NCBI GenBank assembly: GCA_028691845.1
Contig: JAQUYL010000002.1
Location: forward strand, 1-64,000
Direction of reading: 5' to 3'
DNA length: 64,000 nucleotides
Origin: Opitutaceae bacterium
GTDB lineage: Bacteria; Verrucomicrobiota; Verrucomicrobiia; Opitutales; Opitutaceae
The notes below the pieces were generated by a model that was not told the origin of the DNA, made no database searches, and saw only the letters and a list, made by a program, of their open reading frames with translations. Position 1 is the stretch's first letter. Every line of letters begins with the position of its first letter. Both the position numbers and the translations under genes were made by a program. Positions 39,571 through 64,000 of this stretch are shown in pieces.

Positions 39571-39603
39571 AAAAAAAAGAGCGGAGCCGCGTGGCTCCGC
39601 TCT
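39571..39603 (-). terminator. Rho-independent terminator of hppA
   Basis: On the minus strand an 11-bp perfect stem (AGAGCGGAGCC / GGCTCCGCTCT) with a 4-base loop is followed by a run of eight T (complement of A at 39571-39578). It lies 25 bp behind the hppA stop. One of the clearest signals in the window. Confidence 0.92.
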
Positions 39604-42132: not shown

Positions 42133-42357
42133 AAGAATAAAGGGGTAATGCTAAAAAAAATGCCAAGCGCCGCGGACGGAATCCAGACAAATGGCAAGTA
42201 CATGGAGGCCTTAAGGTGGATAAATCCACCCCGCCAACACCGTTAATCCCATGGTTGAAAACTGTGCAAGGCATTTCCAATGCAGTGGTATGAAGCTGTC
42301 ACACAAGCCGTTCCGGCAGGCCGGTTTTATCCAGTTTCCATTGAAGATATTTTTGTT

Positions 42358-42540
42358 GTGCGAACGTGCCGCTCTTTGTGCGCGGCAAGGTGCGGCTGAG
42401 CGTTGCATCGGGGTCAGGGCAAACGTGTTGGCGCCTGCGCCCGGCTGAACGCATCCGCGTGAACCGCCTGTCCCGATTGCAATCGGAACACGACCCCCCC
42501 TGACCTGCGTTGGCAGGATGCCGCTCCGCTGCGATGCCGC
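42358..42540 (-). pseudogene. Degraded RHS-core fragment upstream of hppA
   Basis: Read leftward, one frame gives DPDATLSRTLPRTKSGT, nearly identical to [17 protein letters not shown] of the large RHS gene and to the same part of the orphan. The nucleotide match continues about 80-100 bp past it, with frameshifts, toward sequence corresponding to 50470-50530. Neither end of an RHS gene is present. The rest of the gap 42133-42704 holds nothing recognisable but must contain the leftward hppA promoter. Confidence 0.7.
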
Positions 42541-48153: not shown

Positions 48154-49257
48154 TTACCATTCTTCCACGGGTCCCTTGGGCACCGGGATTCCGGGGCCGT
48201 GGCCGCCAGCCTGCGCGCCCAGGAAGGAGGCGACCAGCGGGACGGGGCGATATTTGGGAAGAAGTTCACCGTGTTCATCGCAAAAGGGCCGGCGCCACAG
48301 CGCATGCGCGGCCAGCAGTTCCTCGAATTCGTCGCGGGTGCGCAGCGCCACCACCTTCCTTTTGAATTCCTTGGCCGGACCCAGCCGCTTTGCGTGCCAG
48401 GCGGCGGCCTTGCGGAATTGCCTGCAGCCGCGCCCCTCGCCGAAGATCTCGATCATCAGGTCGAGATGCCGGCGCATCACCCGGACGCGCTCGGAGTAGC
48501 ACGGTTCGGCCGAGAGCGCACCCGTGGCCAGGTACTGCTGCGTGTGGCGGAATATCCACGGATTGTACAACGCGCCGCGGCCGATACTGACGCCGGCACA
48601 GCCGGTTTCGTCTAACATCTTCCTCGCGGCCCCGGGCGTCGTGATGTCGCCGTTGCCGATGACCGGAATCGTCGGCGCGGCCTGCACGACGGCGCGAATG
48701 CCGGCGAGGTTCACGGTGCCGCCGAATCCCTGGGCGCGGGTTCGGCCGTGCACAAAGACGGCGGCGACGCCGGCCGCCTCCAGCACGCGCGCCAGATCGG
48801 GTGCGGTGAGATTCTGCTCGTCCCAGCCGAGGCGCATCTTGGCGGTGATGGGAATTTTGACCGCCTCCACTATGCCCCGCACGAGCCGCTCGGTCTTCCT
48901 CAGTTCGGTCATCATCGCCGAGCCGCCGCCGACTCCGACGACCTTGCGTACCGGGCAGCCCATGTTGATGTCGACCGAGGCGAGGCCGAGCGACCCGACG
49001 AAGGCGGCGGCATCGCGCATTTCCTCCGGCACGGCGCCGAACAATTGCACTGCCAGCGGTCGGTCGGCCGGCGCCGTTCGGATGAGTTCCATCGCCCGCG
49101 GATTTCTTTCGAGCAGCGACCGGGCGTTGACGAGATCGGTGGTGGCCCAATCGATGCCGCCGATCTCACGCACGACCAGACGGAAGGGCAGATTAGTATA
49201 ACCCGCCAGGGGCGAGAGAAACAGGTTGGAACCTAGGTGATAAGGGCCGAGTCGCAC
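48154..49257 (-). CDS. dus: tRNA-dihydrouridine synthase (Dus family)
   Basis: 367 residues with a GTG start at 49257. TIM barrel with FMN: LSPLAGYTNLPFR, catalytic Cys in DINMGCPVRKV, phosphate site GGGSAMM, KMRLGWDEQN, VHGRTRAQGF, NGDITT and GVSIGRGALYNPWIF. It reduces uridines in the D-loop of tRNA with NADPH. C-terminal helical domain of normal size. The GTG is favoured because the barrel starts 12 residues later. Confidence 0.93.
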   Translation of the reverse strand: MRLGPYHLGSNLFLSPLAGYTNLPFRLVVREIGGIDWATTDLVNARSLLERNPRAMELIRTAPADRPLAVQLFGAVPEEMRDAAAFVGSLGLASVDINMGCPVRKVVGVGGGSAMMTELRKTERLVRGIVEAVKIPITAKMRLGWDEQNLTAPDLARVLEAAGVAAVFVHGRTRAQGFGGTVNLAGIRAVVQAAPTIPVIGNGDITTPGAARKMLDETGCAGVSIGRGALYNPWIFRHTQQYLATGALSAEPCYSERVRVMRRHLDLMIEIFGEGRGCRQFRKAAAWHAKRLGPAKEFKRKVVALRTRDEFEELLAAHALWRRPFCDEHGELLPKYRPVPLVASFLGAQAGGHGPGIPVPKGPVEEW

Positions 49258-49713
49258 GAAGGGAGGGAGGGGCGGTCAGTCAATTAATCCACTGGTTGGG
49301 GAGCGACGGGTTTCCGCTGAGTGCGCAAACACGTGGTCGTGTTGCCTTTCAATTCAGACAAGCTGACAGGTGTCCGGAATGTTTGTACGTGTAAATGTAG
49401 TTTTTTGTCATGCCGGGGTCATGGCGGCGGAGGGGAATCAAGCTATCGGGAGCTTCGCCCTTGCCGGGACCAAAACTGACCTCCACAAAGGCCCCGACAT
49501 AGCCAAAGCGAGTCGCGCGGCTGACCCGGTTCTCAACAAGCTTGCGGTGGAAGTCCCACCCCGAGGGAGGCAAGTTGCCGAGGGACAGCGGATCCAGGGG
49601 TGGGAGTTTTCGTTGCCGCGTTCGGATGGTAAGAACCAAGCCCGTAACCGGGCCGCTGCTTCGAGAAGCTTGTTCTGGATTAATTTTCAAGTAGCGCTGG
49701 CACGTCCTCCGCT
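49258..49713. other. Gap between dus and the RHS orphan region
   Basis: About 450 bp with open but unconvincing frames on both strands. It includes the dus promoter on the right of the gene. I see no recognisable gene, RNA or terminator here. Confidence 0.5.
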
Positions 49714-49743
49714 ATTGGTTGCCGCTATTATACGGCAACCAAT
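49714..49743. terminator. Perfect 11-bp inverted repeat at the 3' end of the RHS orphan
   Basis: ATTGGTTGCCG at 49714-49724 pairs with CGGCAACCAAT at 49733-49743 around an 8-base AT loop, which contains the stop codon of the orphan. No T-run follows on the minus strand, so it may be an end-of-element hairpin rather than a classical terminator. Confidence 0.5.
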
Positions 49744-50723
49744 CCAGATTGCTGAATAGTCTGTTGCGTACTCGGGCTTTTGAAGTAGTTAATCAGTGCC
49801 GGACCGCTGTTATAGACCGTAGCGTCAAGCACCTTTATGGCGTCTCCAGTCACAACCTGGCCGACGGAAACAGACGCACCTAGTTTTCCCCCGAAAATTA
49901 CCTGGGTAAACTCATTCTGCATCTCGCCCCAACTATCAAAGGCCGATCCAGCCTGCTTAAGCAGTTGGCTCCTTTGCTCGTATGGCAGTGTTAGCAGCTG
50001 CTGGATTAGAGCATTGGTGGCAGGATTCTGCGCACATAAGCCCAGCGGATCAACTCGGCCGATGGGGTTATTACCGACAAAGACGTACCAGTTGAGACCA
50101 CCGTCAAATTTAATTGGGTCAGCATTGATAAAGCGCATCAACCGTGGGTTGTAGTAACGCGCGCGCATGTACTGCAGTCCATTGGCGTCGGTCATCACGC
50201 CCAGCTCGCCGTTGAACAGGAAGGAGGTGTCGCTTGAACCGGTGTGCGAAACGGCTGCTCCGTAAGGCGCATAGCTCCAGCGATCCGTGACCGTCTGACT
50301 GCCATCCGTCAGCGCCAGGGTGCTGCCGATTTGGTTGAAGTGATAGGTTGAGGTTGACCCACCGGTCTCCTCGTAGAGCAGTCCCACGCCGTACACGTAG
50401 TAAGTCGTCGTGCCACTCTTGGTGCGCATCAGGGTGCGGCTGAGAGCCGCGTTCGGATCGACCACGAAGGTGGCGGCGCCCGTGCCGGTGATTTCCACCC
50501 GCAAGCCATCGGGATTGCAGCGGTAACCCGAGCCGCCGGCATTGGTCAGACGGTTGCGGGTATCGTACGTGTAGGGAGCCAGACTGCCGCTCGGCAGCGG
50601 GCCGTATGTCATGTTGCCGTCGGCATCGTGGATATAATCAATCCGATTTAACACGAGGTCGCGGAGAGCGCAGAGGAATTGCCCTGTGACGATTCTTTCA
50701 CTTGTTGGCACGCTGGTCCTCAC
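49728..50723 (-). pseudogene. Displaced (orphan) RHS core with alternative C-terminal tip
   Basis: 331 codons, but RHS similarity begins only at residue 33 ([11 protein letters not shown], near 50627); the first 32 codons are unrelated sequence. Residues 33-229 repeat the C-terminal RHS core of the gene at 51179, ending [16 protein letters not shown]...NNPIGRVDPLGL. Then comes a different tip of about 102 residues (starting CAQNPATNAL and containing SWGEMQNEFTQVIFGG). No start site or signal is credible, so it is probably silent and serves as a cassette that can recombine onto the large RHS gene. The tip family is not recognised. Confidence 0.8.
50037..50627 (-). repeat. RHS-core repeat block, orphan copy
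   Basis: Encodes the same 197-residue core as the block at 51692-52285, with high DNA similarity over about 590 bp. Such repeats allow homologous exchange of the tip encoded beyond it. Confidence 0.8.
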
Positions 50724-50747
50724 TGTGCTTTGGTTAGCCTGCGCGTT

Positions 50748-51164
50748 TCACTTAATTTCTGCAGCTAAGTTCGCTGTGTCTTTGTGCCCGAGTTCGATGG
50801 CTCGCTTCAAAAGTTTCAATGCTAGCTCTCTATCTCCACTTCCTGAAGCCCATACCCTAATCGCTTCGCCATAGAGTGCCGGAGGATACTCCAAGGCGAC
50901 TGCCATCTGGCGATACTTTCGGGCCTGAGGGGCATCACCTAATCCGATTCCATAATGCGCCGCAAGCCTGTTGGCTGCCTCACCATCACCTTTCTCGGCT
51001 TTGGCCTTATATCGGACGACATCCTGATCAGATAGGATCGCGCCATGTCCTATGTGAGGCAAGGTCACTACTTCTTCATTGCCTTGCTTACTTGTCGTCT
51101 TGTCGGTTGTGCACGCACTAAGCGCTAACGAGGAGACGACTAAAATTGCGGTAGATTTTCTCAT
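50748..51164 (-). CDS. Sel1-like-repeat lipoprotein, candidate immunity or partner protein
   Basis: 138 residues. Lipoprotein signal peptide with lipobox LSAC (Cys18), then a polar linker and two Sel1-like helical repeats (AANRLAAHYGIGLGDAPQARKYRQMA and ALKLLKRAIELGHKDTANLA). It starts 14 bp after the RHS stop codon on the same strand, the position at which cognate immunity genes of RHS toxins are found. Sel1 repeats mediate protein-protein contact and do occur as immunity proteins for envelope-acting toxins. That assignment is from position; binding to the tip has not been shown. Confidence 0.75.
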   Translation of the reverse strand: MRKSTAILVVSSLALSACTTDKTTSKQGNEEVVTLPHIGHGAILSDQDVVRYKAKAEKGDGEAANRLAAHYGIGLGDAPQARKYRQMAVALEYPPALYGEAIRVWASGSGDRELALKLLKRAIELGHKDTANLAAEIK

Positions 51165-51178
51165 GGAAATTGAGCGGC

Positions 51179-54100
51179 TTACTTTCTCGGATTAGGCAAC
51201 TCGCCTGACTCAACCGAGTTTGTCGGACCTGTTTTCGCGGGAGCAGGTGCTTCTCCATACACGCCCGGCACTGTAACAGTCTTGCTGACCTTGCCGTCGG
51301 GATTCACCTGCATCCACGTTCCCTTGCCGCTTTGGTCTCCGACTGTGACGCCTTTGAACTGACCGCTCTTCGCCCCGACCTGCGGCGCGACCGCTTTAGT
51401 CGCGACGACCACCGTAGATCCGGTTGCTTTCGCGATCGCCTTCATCTCGCTCAAATTTGAGCCAACGCCACCGTAGCAAACCATCGCTTGAATCGGCTGC
51501 CCCGGTTTGTGGCCGGCAGCATTGATCGCAGAGATAATTTGAGATGATGAAACGCTAACTATTCCCCCTTGGTCTGCAAAGAAACCGCCGGCCTTGTCAC
51601 CATGAACAACGACCGTGAAAACTGGTCCACCTGTTGGGATCACTTGGCCACTCGTGAAAGCTGGATCACCTGGCAAGATTAAATTTACATCCGCTAATCC
51701 TTCAGGATCGACATTGCTGATCGGATTGTTCTCAACGAACGCATACCAGTTGAGTCCACCCCCGAAGCCAATTGGGTCAGCATTGAGGAACCTCATCAAT
51801 CGGGGGTTGTAGTAACGTGCGCGCATGTACTGGAGTCCGTTCGCGTCGGTCTGCACGCCCAGTTCGCCGTTGTAGAGGAACGGTGTGTCCGTGGAGCCGG
51901 TCGTCCGCGTGGCCGCTCCGAACGGTGCATAGCTCCACCGGTCTGTGACGTTCTGGCTGCCATCCGTCATCGCCAGCGTGCTGCCGATTTGGTTGAAGTG
52001 ATAGGTTGAGGTTGAAGAACCGGCCTCCTCGTAGAGCAGCCCCAGGCCGTAGACGTAATAGGTCGTGGTGCCACTTTTTGTGCGCGTCAGGGTTCGGCTC
52101 AACGCGGCGTTGGGATCGACCACGAACGTGGCGGCACCCGTGCCGGTGATCTCCACGCGCAGGCCGTCGGGATTGTAGCGGTAGGCCGAGCCGCCGGCAT
52201 TGGTCAGCCGGTTGCGGGTATCGTACGTGTAGGGAGCCAGACTGCCGCCGGGCAGCGGCCCGTAGGTCATGTTGCCGTCGGCATCGCAGCCCACGTTCTG
52301 GCTGTTCCAGGTGGATAACCGGTTGTCATCGTCATACAGAAGACTATCGGTGGCGAGGGTCACGGCGGCGGGCTTGGGGTGGATGAACGAATAGATGATG
52401 CGCCCGTCGTCATCGTAGTGCAATTCCTGAAAGGCCAGGACGACGCCATTGCTGCGGCAGTCCTTGATGAACCGCACCTGCCCCGCGGCGTCGTATTCCT
52501 GGAGCCGGTAGGTGCCGTTGGGCCGGTCGATCCGCGTCAGCCGACTGGCGTTGTTATAGGTGTAGGCCGTCACGCGGTTGTTCCAGTCGGTCACGGTCCA
52601 GAGCCGGCCGAAGTCGTCGTAGGCGTAGGTGACGTTCCCCTTGCCGTTCGGATAGGCAATCTGGGAGAGCTCGCCGCTAGGCAGATATTGGTAGCCGAGG
52701 GTATTCCCTTCGCCGTCCTGGTATTGGGCGAGGCGGTTCAGCGCGTCATAGGAACGGTAGGTCGTGTGGCTGTTCTCAACGACCTCCTTGGGCGCGCCGT
52801 TGGGCCAGTAGGTGAAGGTGGTGGTGCCGACGCCGTCCGTGCGCTGGGTAAGCCGGCCTTCGGAGTCGTAAGCAGAGAAGGTGGTTGTCTGGTTCGATGG
52901 TTCGGTCACGGTCTCAAGCAGTCCGCGGATGTTCCGCGTTTGGGTGGTCGGCAGGTTAAGTGGCGTGGTGACCGTGGTGATGCGCTGGGTGTCGGTGTAG
53001 CTCCAAGTGAAGGACCGGTTGAGGCGGTTGGCGACAGTGGTCGGCCGCCCGTCCTTGTCGTAGACATAATCCAAGGTCCGGTTTTCGGCGTCGGTTGTGC
53101 CGTCCTTGAAGCCGCGGGCGTCGTAAACGTCGGTGGTGGTAAATCCGAGGGGTGTGGTGACAGTGGTGCGATGGCCGTCGTCGTCGTAGCCGAAGGTGGT
53201 GGTACGGTTGAGCGCATCGGTGACATGCCAGAGCCGCTGGGCGCCGTCGTAGCCATAGGTCGTGGTGTTGCCGAGGGCATCGGTGCTGGTCCAGAGCAAC
53301 ACGCGCTGATCGTAGGCGTTGGCGAGGGTGGTCACCTGGCTGGAGATCGGGCCACGCTTGACGGTCAGCAGATGGCCGAGGGCATCGTAATCGTAGTCTA
53401 CTTTGCGGCCGGAAGCGTCGAGGGTGTAGTCGACATCGCCCGCGTCGTCGTAAACGGTCTGGGTGTCGTACTGGGTGGCTCCTTCCCATTGGATTACGTG
53501 GGTACGCTGACGGCGGGCATTATAGGCGCAGGTGGTCTTGGCGTTGTTGCGGTCGATAAACTGGGTCAGGTCGCCACGGGCGTTGTAGGTGAAGCTATCG
53601 GTCGTGCTGTCCGGATAGGTGATGCTTTGCGGATTGCCGTAGCCGTCGTAGGCATAGGTCATCACGGCCCCGGAAGCGTAGGCGGCAGGATGGAGGGTCT
53701 GGATTCGCCCGCGGCCGTCGTAGGTGTAGGAGGTGACAAGGCTGCCGGGAGCGGTGACGGTGGCCACCTTGTGCTGGGTCGTGTAGGTGTACACGGTTTG
53801 CTGGCCTTCGAAGTTTCCCACCTGCGTCGGACGGCTCTGACTGTCATAGACGATGCTACGGCTTTGGCCCGCAGGATTGGTTTCACTGACGAGAACATCA
53901 TTGGTGTCGTAGTCGTAAGTGGTCACACTGCCGCGTGGAGTGGCGTACGTCACCAGGCGATCGGCTCCGTCGTACTGCCAGCAGGCGAGGTGGTTGAGCT
54001 GATCGACGACAAAGATCTTGCGGCCACGGGTGTCGAAATAAGTGCAAACCTTGTAGCCGAGCGGATCGACTTCGGCGCTGAAGCCAGGTGCGATCCAGAG

Positions 54101-57100
54101 ATTGGTGGCGCGGTTGGTGTCACCAAAGACGCGTTGGCGCCAGACGCGTTTCCAGGTGTCGTAGTCGTTTTCGATCACGGTGCGATTGCGAGCATCCTTC
54201 ACGCGGGTGAGGCAATAATCGGAATCCATCTCGTAACGCTGCGTTTTGTTCTCCGCGTCGATGTAGGTGAAAGTGGTCCCTTCGCGGCCGTATTGAACGG
54301 TGCGGCCGGTGCTGTCGGCGACCTGGTAGAGCCGCCCCGAACCGTCGTAGGAGAACGTGAAAGTGCGGTTGTAGGCATCGGCAACCAAATAGAGCCGGTT
54401 GGAACCGTCGTAGCTGGCGGTCAGGCTGTAGTTGAACTGATCGACAATGCTGGTGAATTTGCCGTCCGCGGCGCGAAAGTGGATCGTATTGCCGTGACGG
54501 AAGGCGAGATCGTGCGAATTGTCGGACTGCTTCGTGAGCGTGGCGGCGATACCCGGCGGTGGGGCATAGGTACCGCCCGGTTGCTTGACGAACTCCATGG
54601 ACCGGGCGCCGAGGGCAAGGGCCGCGCGACTATTAATCTGTTGGTCGACCGCCCACGAGAGAGCCGTGGAGGCCAGCAACCAGGCGCGGGCCGTGGACTC
54701 GGTGGCGACAGCATCCTGCGCCAGCCGCACAGCAATGAGAACCGGCAGCACTTCATCAACGGTAGCGCGCTGCATATCGAGGTCGTTCGGACTGCGCATG
54801 GTCAGCTGCAGACCGTAATTGTGGGTCCAGCCGCGGCCAAGGCCGACGGGATCGCTGAGACGGCGGGCGCTGTTGTAGTTGCGATCGAGCCGGAGGGCGT
54901 TCGGCTCGTTTTCATTGCCGACAACCAAGTCTGTATCACTTTTCAAGAAAGCCCCGGTAGTCAGGTCAACCGGATCGGAACCAATGGTCTGAGCTTGAGC
55001 CGGGATGGTCTGGCTTGCCGTGGTCTGGGCAGCCGATGTCGGCTGCTCCACAGAAGCCGATCCGGTAGGATAAGGGCTGACACCTCCACGAGCACCGCTG
55101 ATCCAGCTACCGACGCCGCCGTACGTGGTGATTTGGTAATAACCGCCAAAGATGGAGCCGCCACACAGAACGCTACTGTTGCCCAGAAGTAGAATTTTCT
55201 CCCCGGCATTGATCGAATTCTGGATATTGCTGACGGCGCCTGCCCCAAGGGTGGTATCGTTGAAATTCTGCAGACTTCCCACCGTTGAACTGTAGTTACT
55301 CGAATCCAGAAGATAGGCGTCCCGATTAAGTGTCATCGCATAATCGAGAAGAGAGGGTGTGCCGAAAGCTGACTGACCGGACATCTGCTGGATGGCCGTC
55401 CCCTCCAAGGCTCCGAACAACAAGTCGATGGCGCTTAGAACCGTGCTTTTCGAAGGCGCAGAAGTTGATCGAAAACAGACTCCGGCACAAAGGTTCACGG
55501 GAATATCGACCAGAGGATTCCCATTCCGCAAACAAACGAACCCACCGTGGAACATGCGCGGATAGTCGTGTTGCAAGGACGCGCTACCGAGGGTGGACAA
55601 TTCATGGCACTGCGCCATGTACTGCTGTCCCACAATCTGGAGCCGATCCGTTAGCGTGACATTAGAAGGGGCCGCCGCCTCCTTGGCCGAAACATCCTGC
55701 AAGGTCTTCTGGAGGCGCCCGACCATAGCCCCGAATCCATAGGGCACGGCGACGGCATTCTGTCGTAGCACCGTGGTGCTGCCCTCATAAACATAAGAAA
55801 TTCCGCCATAAAACGCCACAGGTAATTCGAAGCCTATGGTAATGACTATATTCTGGGAGGGACTGCCCGAGGATTCGCGATCGACTTCCAACCCATTAAG
55901 GCGGGTAATCGCAGTGCCGCTGCCATCGAATTCACAGATCAGCGGCTGACCCAACAGTTCCGGACCCTCGAACCAAAGGGTATTTGTTCCCACCTCCAGC
56001 TTGATATGGCCGATATAAGTGTCCGGGATACCGCTCAAGGGGGTCGGCTGGTAGCTGCCATTGCCGACTGTGTGCAACAGCCCCTCCGGGTAGCAGGTTG
56101 CGCTTGGCGCCGTCACGCTAACCACCTCTGGCTGAATGACGGGTAATCGGGCCAGTTCAGCACCGCTGAGATCATGCAGCGTGGCAGAAGAGCGGATGGC
56201 ACTGGAGGCGGCAGCCGCCAGCGTATTGAGATATGAGCGTAACCCAGAACTGCTGATGGCAGGAGAATAGGCGGAGGCATTGCTCGCCCCGGCTGCGGCA
56301 GTGGCGGCACTCCAGGAATATCCCGTCTGGGCATCAAGATTGGGCAGGGTTTGCCCGGGATGCCGGGAAAGCCAGTCGATGGCATGGGGTTTGACGCTGG
56401 GCACAAACCAGACCTCCCCCCGGCCCGGAATCGTGATGCTCACATTCATGCAGACAAGACGGAGCATGCCATCGGCTTCGAATTCGGGCCAAAAGTTGTG
56501 CAGGAGACTAATGGCGCTGGCGTCGTCGTTCACTCCGAGCCATTCGTAGACCCCGACTTGATTTGAGCCCGTGGCTGTCCGGGGAATCCACGTCCATTCC
56601 TCCCAATAGGTCGGAGTATAATTGGCGGCCCGGAACAGCGCGCCCAGCAAGGCGCACTGGTCCATGTCGTTGCCCGCCCTTTCCAGGAAGGTCAGATAGG
56701 CTCCGCGCTGGCACCCAAAGTAAAATTCCGTACGGATGTTATTGCGTACCCACTCATAGATGCGGATGGGATCATAACCGAGGTTTTCGGCCAATTTTCC
56801 GATCGCTGCGTCGCAGTTGGGGTTGTCCGCATATGGTGAATAGACGATGCCGGTGCTATTGGGATCGGGGTTGATTATGGAGTAGGCGGAAACACCACCG
56901 TCCCGGCCGTTGCCGCCCCGGCTTTTGGCGATGCCGGCACCAACGAAGGCCATCGGCAGGGTAGTTGGCTCAAGCATACTCTCCCATCCATCATGAATAT
57001 GGGATTTGCGTTTCACCTTTTCTTTTTGGGCACCCAAGCTGGAGCCGGCCATGATGAGCAGGACGGCCAATGCCAACGAGAACGGACGGGCGATGCGCAT

Positions 57101-57139
57101 GACCGAAATCATGATGATTGATTGGCAAGATTTTTTCAT
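51179..57139 (-). CDS. RHS/YD-repeat protein with transglutaminase-like head and variable tip
   Basis: 1986 residues. N-terminal signal peptide (1-37), a transglutaminase-like domain (about 95-260) with active-site-like Cys in [10 protein letters not shown], a DUF6531-like segment ([21 protein letters not shown]), then the YD repeats ([19 protein letters not shown] and many others). The RHS core ends [30 protein letters not shown]. The 170-residue tip after this motif has VVVHG and, 41 residues on, AMVCYGG, like the His-Gly and Cys blocks of clan CD peptidases. RHS cores form a closed beta shell that holds a toxic tip, released by autoproteolysis. The ATG at 57139 overlaps the RCC1 stop by ATGA. 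Confidence 0.93.
51692..52285 (-). repeat. RHS-core repeat block, main copy
   Basis: Counterpart of 50037-50627 within the large RHS gene, encoding its core end up to DPEGL. The downstream tip (about 51182-51691) is unrelated to the orphan tip. Confidence 0.8.
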
Positions 57140-60100
57140 GGCTGGACCCCCTGAATATTGCCTTCGGCGTCCTTGTTGTATTGCCCACCGGGACCGCTCT
57201 GGAGCTGGTTGGTCCGGTCATACGTGAAAGTGTGCACGTCAACGTCCGACGGGGCACAAGGATTGAGGCCCAGCGTCAGCTCCACTTCGTTCGCCACGCC
57301 ATCGCCGTCAGAATCGCCCGGTCCCATGCTATGCGTGAAGAGCGTGGTCTGCGCGTTCCCGGCGGTCACCTGAATGAGGCTCAACACATTCGGGCTCGCC
57401 GCTTGTTTGTAATACAATTGGACGTAACCGGATGAATCCGTAAAGAGGGTCAAGAGGAGGAACGTCCCTGTGGCCCCGCTCGTTGGCGCCAGTTGCCCGC
57501 CCCCTTGGGTCACGACAAAGGTAACCGGCGCATTGACGAGTGGCGTGGTATTCGTGCTATCCCGCACGCGTGCCACAAACGGCTGCGCATTGAACGCACT
57601 CACGTTGCCGAACTGGTTGTTGCCACCCGTAATCGTCAACGTCGGTGTCGCGCCGTTATAGGATGTGCTCGGATCGGCAAAATCCGATATGCTGTTGCCG
57701 TTGGAGTCGACTAATGTCGGATTCGTGCCGTTGAGGAATTCTTGAATGTCGGAGAGCCCGTCGCTGTCGGAATCGGCGCCGCCCGTATGGCTGAGGTTAC
57801 CGAAGTACTGCATCTCCCAGGCATCACTGATGCCGTTCTGGTTGGTATCATCGGCCCATAAGATAAGCCGGATAGGGCACTGAGTCACTCCACCCCAGCC
57901 AATTCCCAACTGGCCGGAGCCATTATAGCCCCAAGCTCGAATCGTCCCATCGCTCTTTACGGCCAGCGTGTGACTGCCGCCTACGGCTATGGCCACCACG
58001 CCGGTCAAGCCGTTCACCAGCGCCGGGCTCATCCGCTGCGTGGTCGTCCCGTCGCCTAACTGGCCACAGCTGTTGCCCCCCCAGGCCCAGACCGTCCCGT
58101 CGCTCTTCAAGGCTACGGTGTGAGAATCACCCGCGGCTATAGCCATCACGCCGGTCAAGCCGCTCACCTGCACCGGGCTTAACCGCTGCGTGGTCGTCCC
58201 ATCGCCCAGCTGGCCGTTGCTATTGTCTCCCCACGCCCAGACCGTTCCATCGCTCTTTACGGCCAGCGTGTGACTGCCGCCTGCGGCTATGGCCACCACG
58301 CCAGTCAAGCCGCTCACCTGCACCGGGCTTAACCGCTGCGTGGTCGTCCCATCGCCGAGCTGGCCGCAGCTGTTGCCCCCCCACGCCCAGACCGTGCCAT
58401 CGCTCTTCAGCGCCACCGTGTGATTCAGTCCCGCAGCCACGGCTGCCACACTCGTCAATCCTCCGCTCACCGGTACTGGATTTAACCGCTGCGTGGTCGT
58501 CCCGTCGCCCAGTTGGCCATAGTAATTATATCCCCAGGCCCGTACGGTCCCGTCACTCTTCACAGCCACGGTGTGACTGCCGCCTGCGGCCACCACCAGC
58601 ACACTCGTCAGGCCATTCACGAACGCTGGGTAGGACCGTTGTGTTGTCGTCCCATCGCCCAGTTGGCCGTTGCTATTCCTCCCCCAGGCCCGGACGGTGC
58701 CGTCACTCTTCACGGCCACGGTATGACTGTCGCCTGCGGCCGTCGCCACCACGCCCGTTAGGCCGTTCACCTGCACCGAAGTCAGCCGCTGCGTTGTTGT
58801 GCCATCGCCCAGTTGGCCATAATCATTACATCCCCAGGTCGAGACTGCTCCATCGCTCTTTACTATCGTCGAATGATCGTTGCCTGCGGCCACTGCCACC
58901 ACGCCCGTCAAGCTGCTCGCCTGGACCGCGCTGGTCAGAAGTGACGTTGTCCCGTTTCCAAACTGGCCGTAATCATTATTCCCCCAGATCCAGATTGTGC
59001 CATCGCTCTTCTTTAGCGCCACCGTGCAGTTGCCACCTGCGGCTAACATCAACGCGTCGATCGATGGGTTCGTCTGCACCGGACCCACCCGCTGGATCGT
59101 TGTTCTATCACCCAGCTGGCCGCAGCTGTTGTCTCCCCAAGTCCTAACGGTATAATTACTCTTTAGGGCCACTGTGTGATTGGCGCCTGCGGCCACTGCC
59201 ACCACACCCGACAACCCGCTCACCGGCACCGGACTTAATCGCTGTGTTGTCGTGCCGTCGCCCAGCTGACCGCAATCATTCTTCCCCCAAGCTCTGACGG
59301 CTCCGTCGCTTCTTACTGCTACCGTGTGACAGCCGCCTGTGGCTATGGCCACCACGCCCGACAACCCGTTCACCTGCACCGGACTTAACCGCTGCGTTGT
59401 CGTGCCGTCGCCCAGCTGACCATTGCTGTTCAACCCCCAAGCTCTGACCGTTCCGTCGCTTTTCACTGCTACCGTGTGACTGTTGCTTGCAGCTATGGCC
59501 AGCACCCCCGTCAAATTGATCACTTGCACTGGACTTAACCGCTGCGTTGTCGTGCCGTCGCCCAGCTGACCATTGCTGTTCAACCCCCAAGCCCAAACGG
59601 TCCCATCGCTTTTCAGAGCCAACGTATGGGAACTGCCAGCGGCCACCGCCACCACGCCCGTCAAGCCGCTCACCTGCACCGGGCTCGTCTGCTGTGTTGT
59701 CGTTCCATCGCCCAGCTGGCCATTGCTGTTCAACCCCCAAGCCCAGACTGTTCCATCGCTCTTCAAGGCCACCGTGTGATTGCCACCTGCCGCCGCCGCC
59801 ATCACATCCGTCAAGCCGCTTACCTGCACCGGGCTCGTCCGCTGTGTTGTCGTTCCGTCGCCCAATTGGCCAAAGTCATTTTTCCCCCATGTCCAAACCA
59901 TCCGATCATTCTTTACCGTTACTATGTGGGACGCCCCAGCAGTCACTGCCGCGACAACAGCCAACCATCTTACTTGCACCGGAGTGCTCCGCGATGTTGT
60001 CGTTCCGTCGCCCAGCTGGCCGTTGTAATTATATCCCCAAGTCCAGACCGTGCCGTTGCTCTGCAAAGCTACTGTGTGATAACCACCCGCTGCCATGGCT

Positions 60101-62994
60101 CCCACGCCCATCTGGCCGTTTACCTGCCCTGGGATGGTCCGCCAAGACACCCACACTGGTGTGTGGGGGAGACCGCCCAGCTGGCCGTTGTGATCCTCTC
60201 CCCAAGCCCAAAAAGAGCCATCACTTCTCAACGCCACTGTGTGATAGCCACCCGCGGCGACAGCCATCACGCCAGTCAATCCGCTTACCTGCACCGGAGT
60301 GGTCCGTCGTATTGTCGTGCCGTCACCCAGCTGGCCACTGCTGTTCGACCCCCAAGCTCTGACGGTTCCGTCGCTTTTCGCGGCTACCGTGTGGCTGCCG
60401 CCTGCGGCAATAGCCACCACGCCCGTCAGTCCGCTCACCTGCACCGGAGTGGTCCGTCGTATTGTCGTGCCGTCGCCCAGCTGGCCATAGTAATTATATC
60501 CCCAAGCTCTGACGGTTCCGTCGCTTTTCGCGGCTACCGTGTGGCTGCCGCCTGCGGCAATAGCCACCACGCCGGTCAGTCCGCTTACCTGTACCGGAGT
60601 GGTCCGCTGCGTAGTCGTGCCGTCGCCCAGCTGGCCATAGGAATTATATCCCCAGGCCCAAACGGTTCCGTCACTCTTCAGAGTCACCGTATGAGAACCG
60701 CCCGCAGCTACGGCCCCGGTCGAGGGCAGGGGGGCGTCGCCGTAATTGGCGTGCACCGTGGCGTCGCCCGAGCCCATCGTGAAGGTCGTGGATGCGGCGG
60801 CCGGGTTGGCGATGCTCCCGGGGCCAGAGACCAACGTCCAACCCGAGAAGACCTGCCCGCTCGGCGGCGTGTTGGCGGTGATCGTGACGTTCGTCCCAAC
60901 CGTCAGTCCCGAGGCGCTCCCGGAGCCGCTTTGCACGGTCAGCGTGTAGGTAGTTGTCGCCACCGCGAGGGCATTGCTCCAATCCGACCAGTTGCCGACG
61001 GCGTCGCGAGCGCGGACCGTCATCTGGTAGGTTGTGTTGGTGTCCAGCCCGGTGACGCTCATACTGGTCCCCTCGGTGGTTCCCAACGAGGTGCCGCTCC
61101 GGCTGACCTCGTAGGCGGTCACGCCGACGTTATCAGCCGAAGCGCTCCAACTGAGGGTGAAAGAAGACGTCGTGACGCTGCCGGCCTGCAGACCGTTGGG
61201 CACGCTGGGCTGGGTCGTGTCGACGTAATTGGCCTGCACCGTGGCGTCGCCCGAGCCCATCGTGAAGGTCGTGGTTGCGGCAGCCGGGTTGGCGATGCTC
61301 CCGGGCCCGGAGACCAACGTCCAACCCGAGAAGACCCGCCCGCTCGGCGGCGTGTTGGCGGTGATCGTGACGTTCGTGCCGGCCGTCAATCCCGAGGCGC
61401 CCCCAGAGCCGCTCTGCACGGTCAACGTGTAGGTGTAGGGAGCTGTCGTGACCGCGAGGGCATTGCTCCAACCCGACCAGTTGCCGGCACCATCGCAGGC
61501 GCGAACCGTCATCTGGTAGGTTGTATTGGCGTCCAGCCCGGTGACGCTCATACTGGTCCCCGCGGTGGTTCCCAACGAGGTGCCGCTCCGGCTGACCTCG
61601 TAGGCGGTCACGCCGACATTATCCGTCGAGGCGTTCCAACTGAGGGTGAAAGAAGACGTCGTGACGCTGCCGGCCTGCAGACCGTTGGGCACGCTGGGCG
61701 GAGTAATGTCGACGTAATTGGCCTGCACCGTGGCGTCGCCCGAGCCCATCGTGAAGGTCGTGGTTGCGGCAGCCGGGTTGGCAATGCTCCCAGGCCCGGA
61801 GACCAGCGTCCAACTTGAGAAGACCAACCCGCCCGGCGGCGAGTCGGCGGTGATGGTGGCGTTCGTGCCGGCCGTCAAACCCGAGGCGCTCCCGGAACCG
61901 CTCTGCACGGTCAGCGTGTAGGTGGGCAGGGGCACATAATTGGCCTGCACGGTGGCGTCGCCCGAACCCATCGTGAAGGTCGTGGTTGCGGCAGCCGGGT
62001 TGGCAATGCTCCCAGGCCCGGAGACCAGCGTCCAACTTGAGAAGACCTGCCCGCTCGGCGGCGCGTTGGCCGAGATACCGACGTTCGTGCCGGCCGTCAG
62101 TCCCGAGCCGCCCCCGGAACCGCTCAACACCGTCAGCGTGTAGATGGGCTCATAATTGGCCTGCACGGTGGCGTCGCCGGAACCCATCGTGAAGGTCGTC
62201 GATGACGAGGAGGCATTGGCGATGCTCCCGGGCCCAGAGATCAGGGACCAATTCGAGAACACATACCCGCTCGGCGGCGAGTTGGCCGAGATACTGACGT
62301 TTGTACCGGCCGTCAGTCCCGAGCCGCCCCCACTGCCGTTCTGCACCGTGAGCGTGTAGGTGGGCAGGGAGACAGAGAAACTGCTCATCACGTTGCCGTT
62401 CGAGTCCCACACCCCGTCACTATCGATGGCCCGAATGTGGACGTTGTAGTCGCCGACCTCCGATGGCGTCCAATTGATGGACGCCGTGGCATTGCTGCCG
62501 CTGATGCTGGTGCCGTCGACATAATTCCAGCCCGGCAGATTCGGCCCGTTGATGTAGAAATTGAGCGTGCTCAGGTTGCCGTCCGGATCGGAGGCGTTGC
62601 CCGTCAACGTCGTCGATTGCCCGAGTACGATATTCGTGCCGCTCACCCAGTTGGTCTGGGGCGGCTGGTTGCCCGTTATGGAGACATAAAAAGTAGCGCT
62701 ATCATCATAATACAAATCATTATAAGAATCATACGAAGATGCATAAACATCGTAAGTCACCGTCTGCACCCCGGTGTCCGTCGTCGTCAGTGAGGCGCTG
62801 GTATAGCCCCAAGTCTGAAAGACCCCGTTCTTGTGGATCTCCACGGAAGGATCTCCGATATAGCCTGTTACCCACGCTTCAACCACGTAGCTCTGCCCGC
62901 TGGCCACGGACGACGGGGCGGAATAATTGGCAGTAATAGCTGTGGCTATTGTAGGCGCCAGCAGCGCGATGAAAAAGAAAAGGCGTCCTAACAT
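57136..62994 (-). CDS. Giant RCC1/FN3/repeat surface protein ending in a YD motif
   Basis: 1952 residues from the ATG at 62994. Signal peptide ([18 protein letters not shown]), an Ig-like region, five InlB-B-type repeats of about 70 residues ([10 protein letters not shown]...[11 protein letters not shown]), two fibronectin type III modules ([21 protein letters not shown]) set between repeats three to five, and 18 RCC1 repeats ([11 protein letters not shown]...[13 protein letters not shown]). Calcium-type motifs ([36 protein letters not shown]) and a last YD-like segment [25 protein letters not shown] finish it. RCC1 repeats fold into beta-propellers. The stop overlaps the RHS start by ATGA. 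It is probably secreted or surface-held and may act with the RHS protein. Confidence 0.92.
57880..60715 (-). repeat. Tandem array of 18 RCC1 repeats (about 150 bp each)
   Basis: In-frame coding repeats within the RCC1 protein. Most carry [11 protein letters not shown] and [20 protein letters not shown]; one unit (near 60150-60230) is degenerate, with [11 protein letters not shown] in place of the GDGTT loop. High DNA similarity between units makes recombination and copy-number change likely. Confidence 0.9.
60730..62370 (-). repeat. Five InlB-B-like repeats with two interspersed FN3 modules
   Basis: Coding repeats of about 70 residues, sharing [28 protein letters not shown] and [13 protein letters not shown]. 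The third and fourth, and the fourth and fifth, are separated by near-identical FN3 modules, so the block (repeat plus FN3) itself seems duplicated. Confidence 0.85.
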
Positions 62995-63013
62995 GGCAGT
63001 GTCGGGTTGGGGG

Positions 63014-64000
63014 TTATAAGGCTGCCAAGGAGGCAAGCGTTGCCTTCAGGTCGCGTTGGGCTGAAACAGAAAGGACAAGCCCATTGCGATCGACCAAGTA
63101 CACAAGCGGCGCGGTGGTCAAATTGAGCTGCTTTGCAAGCGGGCTTTCACACCCGCGCTCATTATAAAGCTGCAAATCGGGTAATTTCGCCTTTTGGGCC
63201 GCAGCCTTGGCTGCGGACACATCAGTATCAAGATTCACTCCGATCAGTTTCGCATCGGGAGGGGCTTGTTTGATTATCGCCTGAGCTAATCCCAGGCTGG
63301 ATGAATTCCCCGCCGCCCATGTGTAGAGAATAACCTTCTGTCCCCTGATCGACTCGGGAGTGATAACGGCCCCCACTGCCGGACGCAGCGGATCGAGTAA
63401 CGGACGTCCCACAAAGGTGCAGCGGGTTGCCAGCACCCGAGCCCCCTTCTCCACATACGCTGGGGTGTCTTTATTATCAGTAAGTTCCTGCGCCAACCGG
63501 GCCGCAATATCGTCGGAACTCCACTCGGCCACATGCAAAAGGGCCTCAAATCCATATGGGACATCCGGAAATTCGCTTATCAGACCCCGCTCAACCTTTT
63601 CATAAGCGCTGAGCCGATCTGCCATCTTCTGTCCCTGCTGCTGTCTGGCTGTGAAATGGTCAGCAATGGCAGCTATCTCAAACCGCTTGGATAAAGGGAT
63701 CGTCGTGTCACTGCGAACTCCCTTCACCGCTTGGTCCCGCCGCTCTTTTTGTGCAGTGCTATCGTATCTTGCCGCGTATAAAAGCGCTAGCGCTTCCGAG
63801 CATTCAGCCTCCTTCGCCTCCGGACGCTGGGAATACTGCGTGTAGAAGTCCTTGTACTTGTCCGCTTGTTGAATGTAGCCCGCCGCCACCTGCACCTTGG
63901 CCTCCTTGGCCACGGACTGGGGCGCAGCCAGATTCTTAAGTGCCGCCCATTGCTGGGCAATGGCGTCGTTAGCTGGAGCCGGCGCGGTCATCTCTGTTTT
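63014..64000 (-). CDS. Thioredoxin-fold protein with helical N-terminal part (starts beyond the window)
   Basis: At least 328 residues; the frame is still open at the right edge (KTE before the internal Met at 63991), so the start lies outside. The N-terminal two thirds are helical ([32 protein letters not shown]). The C-terminal third resembles a TlpA-like thioredoxin fold ([41 protein letters not shown]...[16 protein letters not shown]), but WAAGNS replaces the usual WCxxC, so no disulphide exchange is expected. Its stop is 19 bp ahead of the RCC1 gene, so it is probably part of the same operon. Confidence 0.8.

Follow-up and report, generated by a model that had tools for sequence, protein, structure and literature searches.

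The window, a 64,000-nucleotide stretch of one contig of an Opitutaceae bacterium, contained a large Rhs gene of 1,986 amino acids on the minus strand (51179..57139). The encoded protein was composed of a signal peptide, a DUF6531 domain, YD repeats, the Rhs core, and a tip of its own, and was matched by DUF6531 and RHS_repeat of Pfam and by YD_repeat_2x and Rhs_assc_core of NCBIfam. Its N-terminus was hydrophobic, with a maximum hydropathy of 2.52. The tip of this main Rhs gene extended about 171 residues past the core (51182..51691, minus strand) and had a GC content of 55%, compared with 62% in the core; no relative of this tip was found among the 57 genomes searched. A lipoprotein-like ORF of 138 amino acids with a weak Sel1 match (50748..51164, minus strand; N-terminus MRKSTAILVVSSLALSACTT) started 14 bp 3' of the main Rhs gene and, judged by this position, probably encodes the cognate, immunity-type partner of the tip in the main Rhs protein. 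On the minus strand, the main Rhs gene and the Sel1-like ORF were followed by the orphan frame, a stretch of about 470 bp without coding signal, and a Dus-type gene. The GC content was 60–62% in the core, 51–55% in both tips, 51% in the Sel1-like ORF, and 64% in the window, and the GC-poor tips and partner gene agree with the description of Rhs loci (PMC2935791).

The start of the main Rhs gene was overlapped by 4 bp (ATGA) by a frame for an RCC1-repeat protein of 1,966 amino acids (57136-63036, minus strand), which had a YD/Rhs-like tail at its end. At two other loci, L003 and L039, the gene preceding the Rhs gene likewise had a YD/Rhs-like tail at its end, and this two-gene order seems to be conserved.

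The orphan frame (49728..50723) was located downstream of the main Rhs gene on the same, minus strand and comprised 331 codons from a GTG. It consisted of 32 leading codons (50628..50723), a core block of 198 codons ending at DPLGL (50034..50627), and a tip of 99 residues (49731..50027). The core block, assigned by its Rhs_assc_core match and by alignment to the main gene, repeated a block of the main gene (51692..52285, minus strand) over 594 bp without any gap and with an offset of 1658 bp, and the identity outside both blocks was at background on either side. Identical positions amounted to 489/594 bases (82.3%) and 172/198 residues (86.9%), with longest identical runs of 40 and 38 bp, and third codon positions held 67 of the 105 differences. 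The divergence of the blocks was dN 0.10 and dS 0.64 by NG86, and 0.08 and 0.83, respectively, by YN00, which corresponded to a dN/dS of about 0.10–0.15. Rhs_assc_core (TIGR03696) was located at the end of both blocks with E values of 1e-22 and 3e-23 (1.2e-22 for the orphan). The main gene and the orphan contained the only two Rhs cores of the 2.95-Mb, 37-contig genome, and no third was found. Assembly collapse was considered as an explanation of the two blocks and is unlikely at 82% identity.

The last 90 bp of the core were more divergent between the blocks (70% identical) than the rest, and a more divergent core end was also observed in several surveyed pairs with unrelated tips. Therefore, the core end tends to travel together with the tip. 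By sequence comparison, the main and orphan tips were unrelated to each other. The core end occurred in two forms, each found across genera. The form DPIKFDGG, just before the DPxGL site, was common to the orphan (50034-50140) and one G006 cassette (L033, G006:C6); at the same position, the main gene carried DPIGFGGG, as did the second G006 cassette.

The 32 leading codons were a run-through of the spacer and not Rhs sequence, with a coding score of 0.09 per codon, a GC content of 51%, and no other match anywhere in the genome. The orphan frame merely extends here back into the spacer 3' of the Sel1-like ORF. No signal peptide was found in the leading codons, in which the maximum hydropathy was 1.15 versus 2.52 in the main Rhs gene. 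No clear Shine-Dalgarno or ribosome site was found at the orphan start, and no promoter-like site was found in a search of positions 49200-52400. The preliminary description had stated that the orphan repeats about 197 residues of the RHS core with high DNA similarity and then carries a new tip. The ungapped alignment of 198 codons and the unrelated tips confirmed the repeat itself, but the similarity was overstated, since the identity was 82.3% and no identical run exceeded 40 bp. Its view of the leading codons as unrelated filler was fair in light of their uniqueness, base composition, and low coding score, and the claimed want of a credible start and signal peptide was borne out by the sequence, in which no clear ribosome site, promoter-like site, or hydrophobic segment was found.

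Homologues of the orphan tip in two relatives were about 186 residues long, and the tip matched their first 99 residues, with identities of 58% to G806 and 45% to G007. These two genomes, both of one sister genus, were the only ones with clear relatives of the tip when 388 genomes from the phylum, 252 genomes from the family, and 57 relatives were searched. By codon position, the identity in the orphan tip was 71, 74, and 30%. The tips of G007 and G806 ran about 86 residues past the stop of the window frame, with extensions that were alike (...PVLSSSPGIEVTSS...), and each was then followed by an overlapping ORF of 171–173 amino acids with a hydrophobic, signal-like N-terminus; the two ORFs resembled each other. 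Neither the last ~86 residues of the tip nor this partner ORF was found in the window in any frame. The stretch between the orphan and the Dus-type gene (49258..49713), a single copy in the genome, had no coding signal, with six-frame coding scores of at most 0.03 and a best ORF of 0.07. No linked cognate immunity gene was present 3' of the orphan, and positions 49258-49730 contained no coding ORF or homologue of the partner. An ORF at 49349-49690 was rejected as an immunity gene because its coding score was near zero and it did not resemble the known partner genes.

A weak third tip match in G123 (E 0.002) was full of stops and was set aside. The plasmid search gave no match to the orphan tip and none to the DNA of the locus, and neither the orphan nor the main tip matched any known toxin family. 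Single-sequence structure models of both tips had pLDDT values below 40 and were too poor for structure searches. A comparison of tips between arrays, in which the motif used caught only 13 tips, added nothing beyond the three known tips. The comparison with the longer homologues suggests that the orphan tip is not complete and was probably truncated by loss in the window. Alternatively, the C-terminal extension may have been gained in the sister genus, since both relatives of the tip belong to that one genus.

Residue 99 was the last with homology to the full-length tips, and the homology stopped exactly at an inverted repeat (49714..49743) with two perfect 11-bp arms and a loop of 8 nt, which contained the orphan stop codon and had an RNA fold z of -4.0. 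Only two perfect hairpins with arms of at least 11 bp, including this one, were present in the 64 kb. The other strong hairpin (39578-39603) was located 3' of the pyrophosphatase-like gene and had a T8 tail, as expected of a terminator. The hairpin at the orphan stop was rejected as an intrinsic terminator; it had no T-run, and its left arm was tip-coding sequence. Since this left arm aligned with the relatives, the right arm probably arose by fold-back copying when the 3' part of the tip was lost.

When the two blocks were compared by a relative-rate test with the two G006 cassettes as the outgroup, the orphan and main branches had 8 amino-acid changes each, with 21 and 16 silent changes, respectively. 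Because the changes were about equal on the two branches, the orphan core has not been a neglected copy for long. It either diverged as part of a full-length gene and arrived by lateral displacement, or was detached recently. Since the rates were equal and both blocks were constrained, the blocks probably diverged in separate full-length genes, of which one arrived laterally, and were brought together by lateral C-terminal displacement. The silent differences between the blocks were clustered (P 0.015), and thus some past exchange or partial gene conversion may have occurred between them, in which case recombination would not be absent.

A main gene with a downstream orphan on the same strand was also found in G006:C11, G007:C1, G012, G011, and G044, from the family and the order. 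The homology arms were 97% identical over 986 bp in G006:C11 and 90.5% over 1001 bp in G007:C1. In addition, G006:C6, G006:C22, and G038:C7 contained arrays in which the fragments had similar cores but differing tips. The main/orphan layout is common in these relatives, with homology arms ranging from about 73% to 97%, and the window pair is of middling to low identity. In G012, the core ends of arrays L035 and L036 were 100% identical over 600 bp, and the first 93 tip residues were also identical in L035; these array units are very recent tandem copies.

The arrangement is that of the well-known rhs-main / rhs-CT-orphan pairs (Jackson 2009; Koskiniemi 2014), here in a probable Verrucomicrobiota genome. 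As in an rhs-CT-orphan, the core fragment ended in Rhs_assc_core/DPxGL, the frame was located downstream on the same strand, the tip was non-homologous, and there was no start or export signal. In Salmonella Typhimurium LT2 (STM0291/STM0292; PMC3967940), a large Rhs gene and its partner gene are likewise followed by a fragment on the same strand, and this orphan shares about 0.5 kb of core homology, has no start or export signal, and carries an unrelated tip. The LT2 main gene and orphan, 95% identical over 522 bp, recombine and deploy the orphan toxin, the one case in which such recombination was shown (PMC3967940). However, the arms in the window, from a different phylum, were 82% identical over 594 bp, and the orphan here had a truncated tip and no partner gene, in contrast to the complete toxin and immunity gene of the LT2 orphan. 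The locus also resembled the displacement arrays of Enterobacteriaceae, such as SMA1610-1612 of Serratia marcescens (Jackson 2009, PMC2935791), with silent downstream core fragments, non-homologous GC-poor tips, and frequent fragment decay. The Serratia core fragments are 91.6% identical in amino acids, in contrast to 86.9% here, where only a single orphan was present. The same layout was found in the core-plus-tip arrays of G006:C6, G006:C11, G007:C1, and G038:C7, and in G006:C6 each tip was followed by its own small ORF. Unlike the window pair, several of these have arms of 90–97% and full tips of about 185–300 amino acids.

The orphan is best explained as a displaced Rhs C-terminal cassette, which was left behind or brought in at a tip exchange and has since decayed; the probability of this reading was estimated at roughly 0.7. 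Recombination within the conserved core would have replaced the large Rhs gene's tip, following the C-terminal displacement model (PMC2935791), and a core fragment with another tip would have stayed, or been brought in, downstream of the large gene. A rearrangement at the 11-bp inverted repeat would then have removed the orphan's partner gene together with the 3' half of the orphan tip. Because no linked partner gene was present, the orphan is classified, on its sequence, as a degenerate remnant of an rhs-CT-orphan cassette and not as an intact putative toxin/immunity pair.

Since the orphan lies downstream in the same orientation with a core-homologous arm in register, recombination across these blocks would produce an in-frame fusion of the large gene and the orphan tip, with a deletion of about 1.66 kb. 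Such homologous recombination is possible in principle and should be rare at 82% identity. Its product would carry a truncated tip and no orphan partner gene, and would have lost the Sel1-like gene. The preliminary description had regarded the orphan as a ready donor for tip replacement, whose tip might be seen joined to the large gene in other isolates. The displaced tip and the in-frame core arm were recovered, but its readiness is unlikely because of the lower identity, the incomplete tip, the missing partner gene, and the loss of the Sel1-like gene. The orphan-type tips of G007 and G806 were carried on shorter Rhs fragments that belonged to another core lineage and had different core-tip linkers; the Rhs frame was broken upstream in G007, and the G806 assembly has gaps. 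The tip module thus also occurs on other cores. It was never joined to the large gene among the family relatives examined, and in none of the genomes searched across the phylum, the family, and the relatives was it found on a core of the lineage of the large gene. The search of genome contigs gave one relative of the core, without the orphan tip.

Alternatively, the orphan could be silent but functional, and homologous recombination could place this cassette on the large gene in part of the population, in the manner of Salmonella LT2. The core block in register and the missing start and export signal are consistent with this, there is a precedent with 522 bp at 95% (PMC3967940), long near-identical arms exist in relatives (G006:C11, 97% over 986 bp), and the clustered silent identity suggests past exchange. 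It is nonetheless unlikely at an identity of 82%, with no identical run above 40 bp, a truncated tip, and a missing partner gene, for want of which the recombinant would be unprotected if the tip were toxic. An old duplication in place, by which the core end was copied locally long ago and the copies diverged side by side, is quite unlikely. It would account for the tandem position, the ungapped register, and the dS of 0.64–0.83, but the orphan core was as constrained and slow as the main core (8 versus 8 amino-acid changes), unlike an unexpressed local copy, and its divergent end (last 90 bp 70% identical) had the DPIKFDGG form of a G006 cassette, unlike the neighbouring main core.

Two further readings assume that the 99-residue tip is a complete domain. 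It is very unlikely that this tip would be an undescribed domain working without a partner gene, with the orphan core kept under selection by ongoing gene conversion with the large gene; if so, the locus would diversify both the tip and the end of the core. Expression of the orphan as a small protein of its own, translated from an internal start, is highly improbable, given that no promoter-like site, clear ribosome site, signal, or partner gene was found. The frame is open, the tip shows codon-position constraint, and internal expression is known for Salmonella Rhs-CT toxins (PMC7043789), but the codon constraint may pre-date the truncation.

As a displaced and decayed cassette, the locus alone is an ordinary, partly decayed example. 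Together with its relatives, it documents in probable Verrucomicrobiota genomes the Rhs displacement layout that has been best studied in enterobacteria. The arms of about 73%–97% across the relatives form a natural series for the question of how much identity tip exchange needs, and the locus shows how a cassette may decay, here by loss of the partner gene and of the tip's C-terminal half, with an inverted repeat where the tip breaks off.

A short relic of the same Rhs core, DPDATLSRTLPRTKSGT, was located at 42365-42415 within 42347-42499 on the minus strand (blastn E value of 5e-6 in the window). It was positioned 8 kb away, in a spacer with pyrophosphatase-like and permease-like genes on either side.
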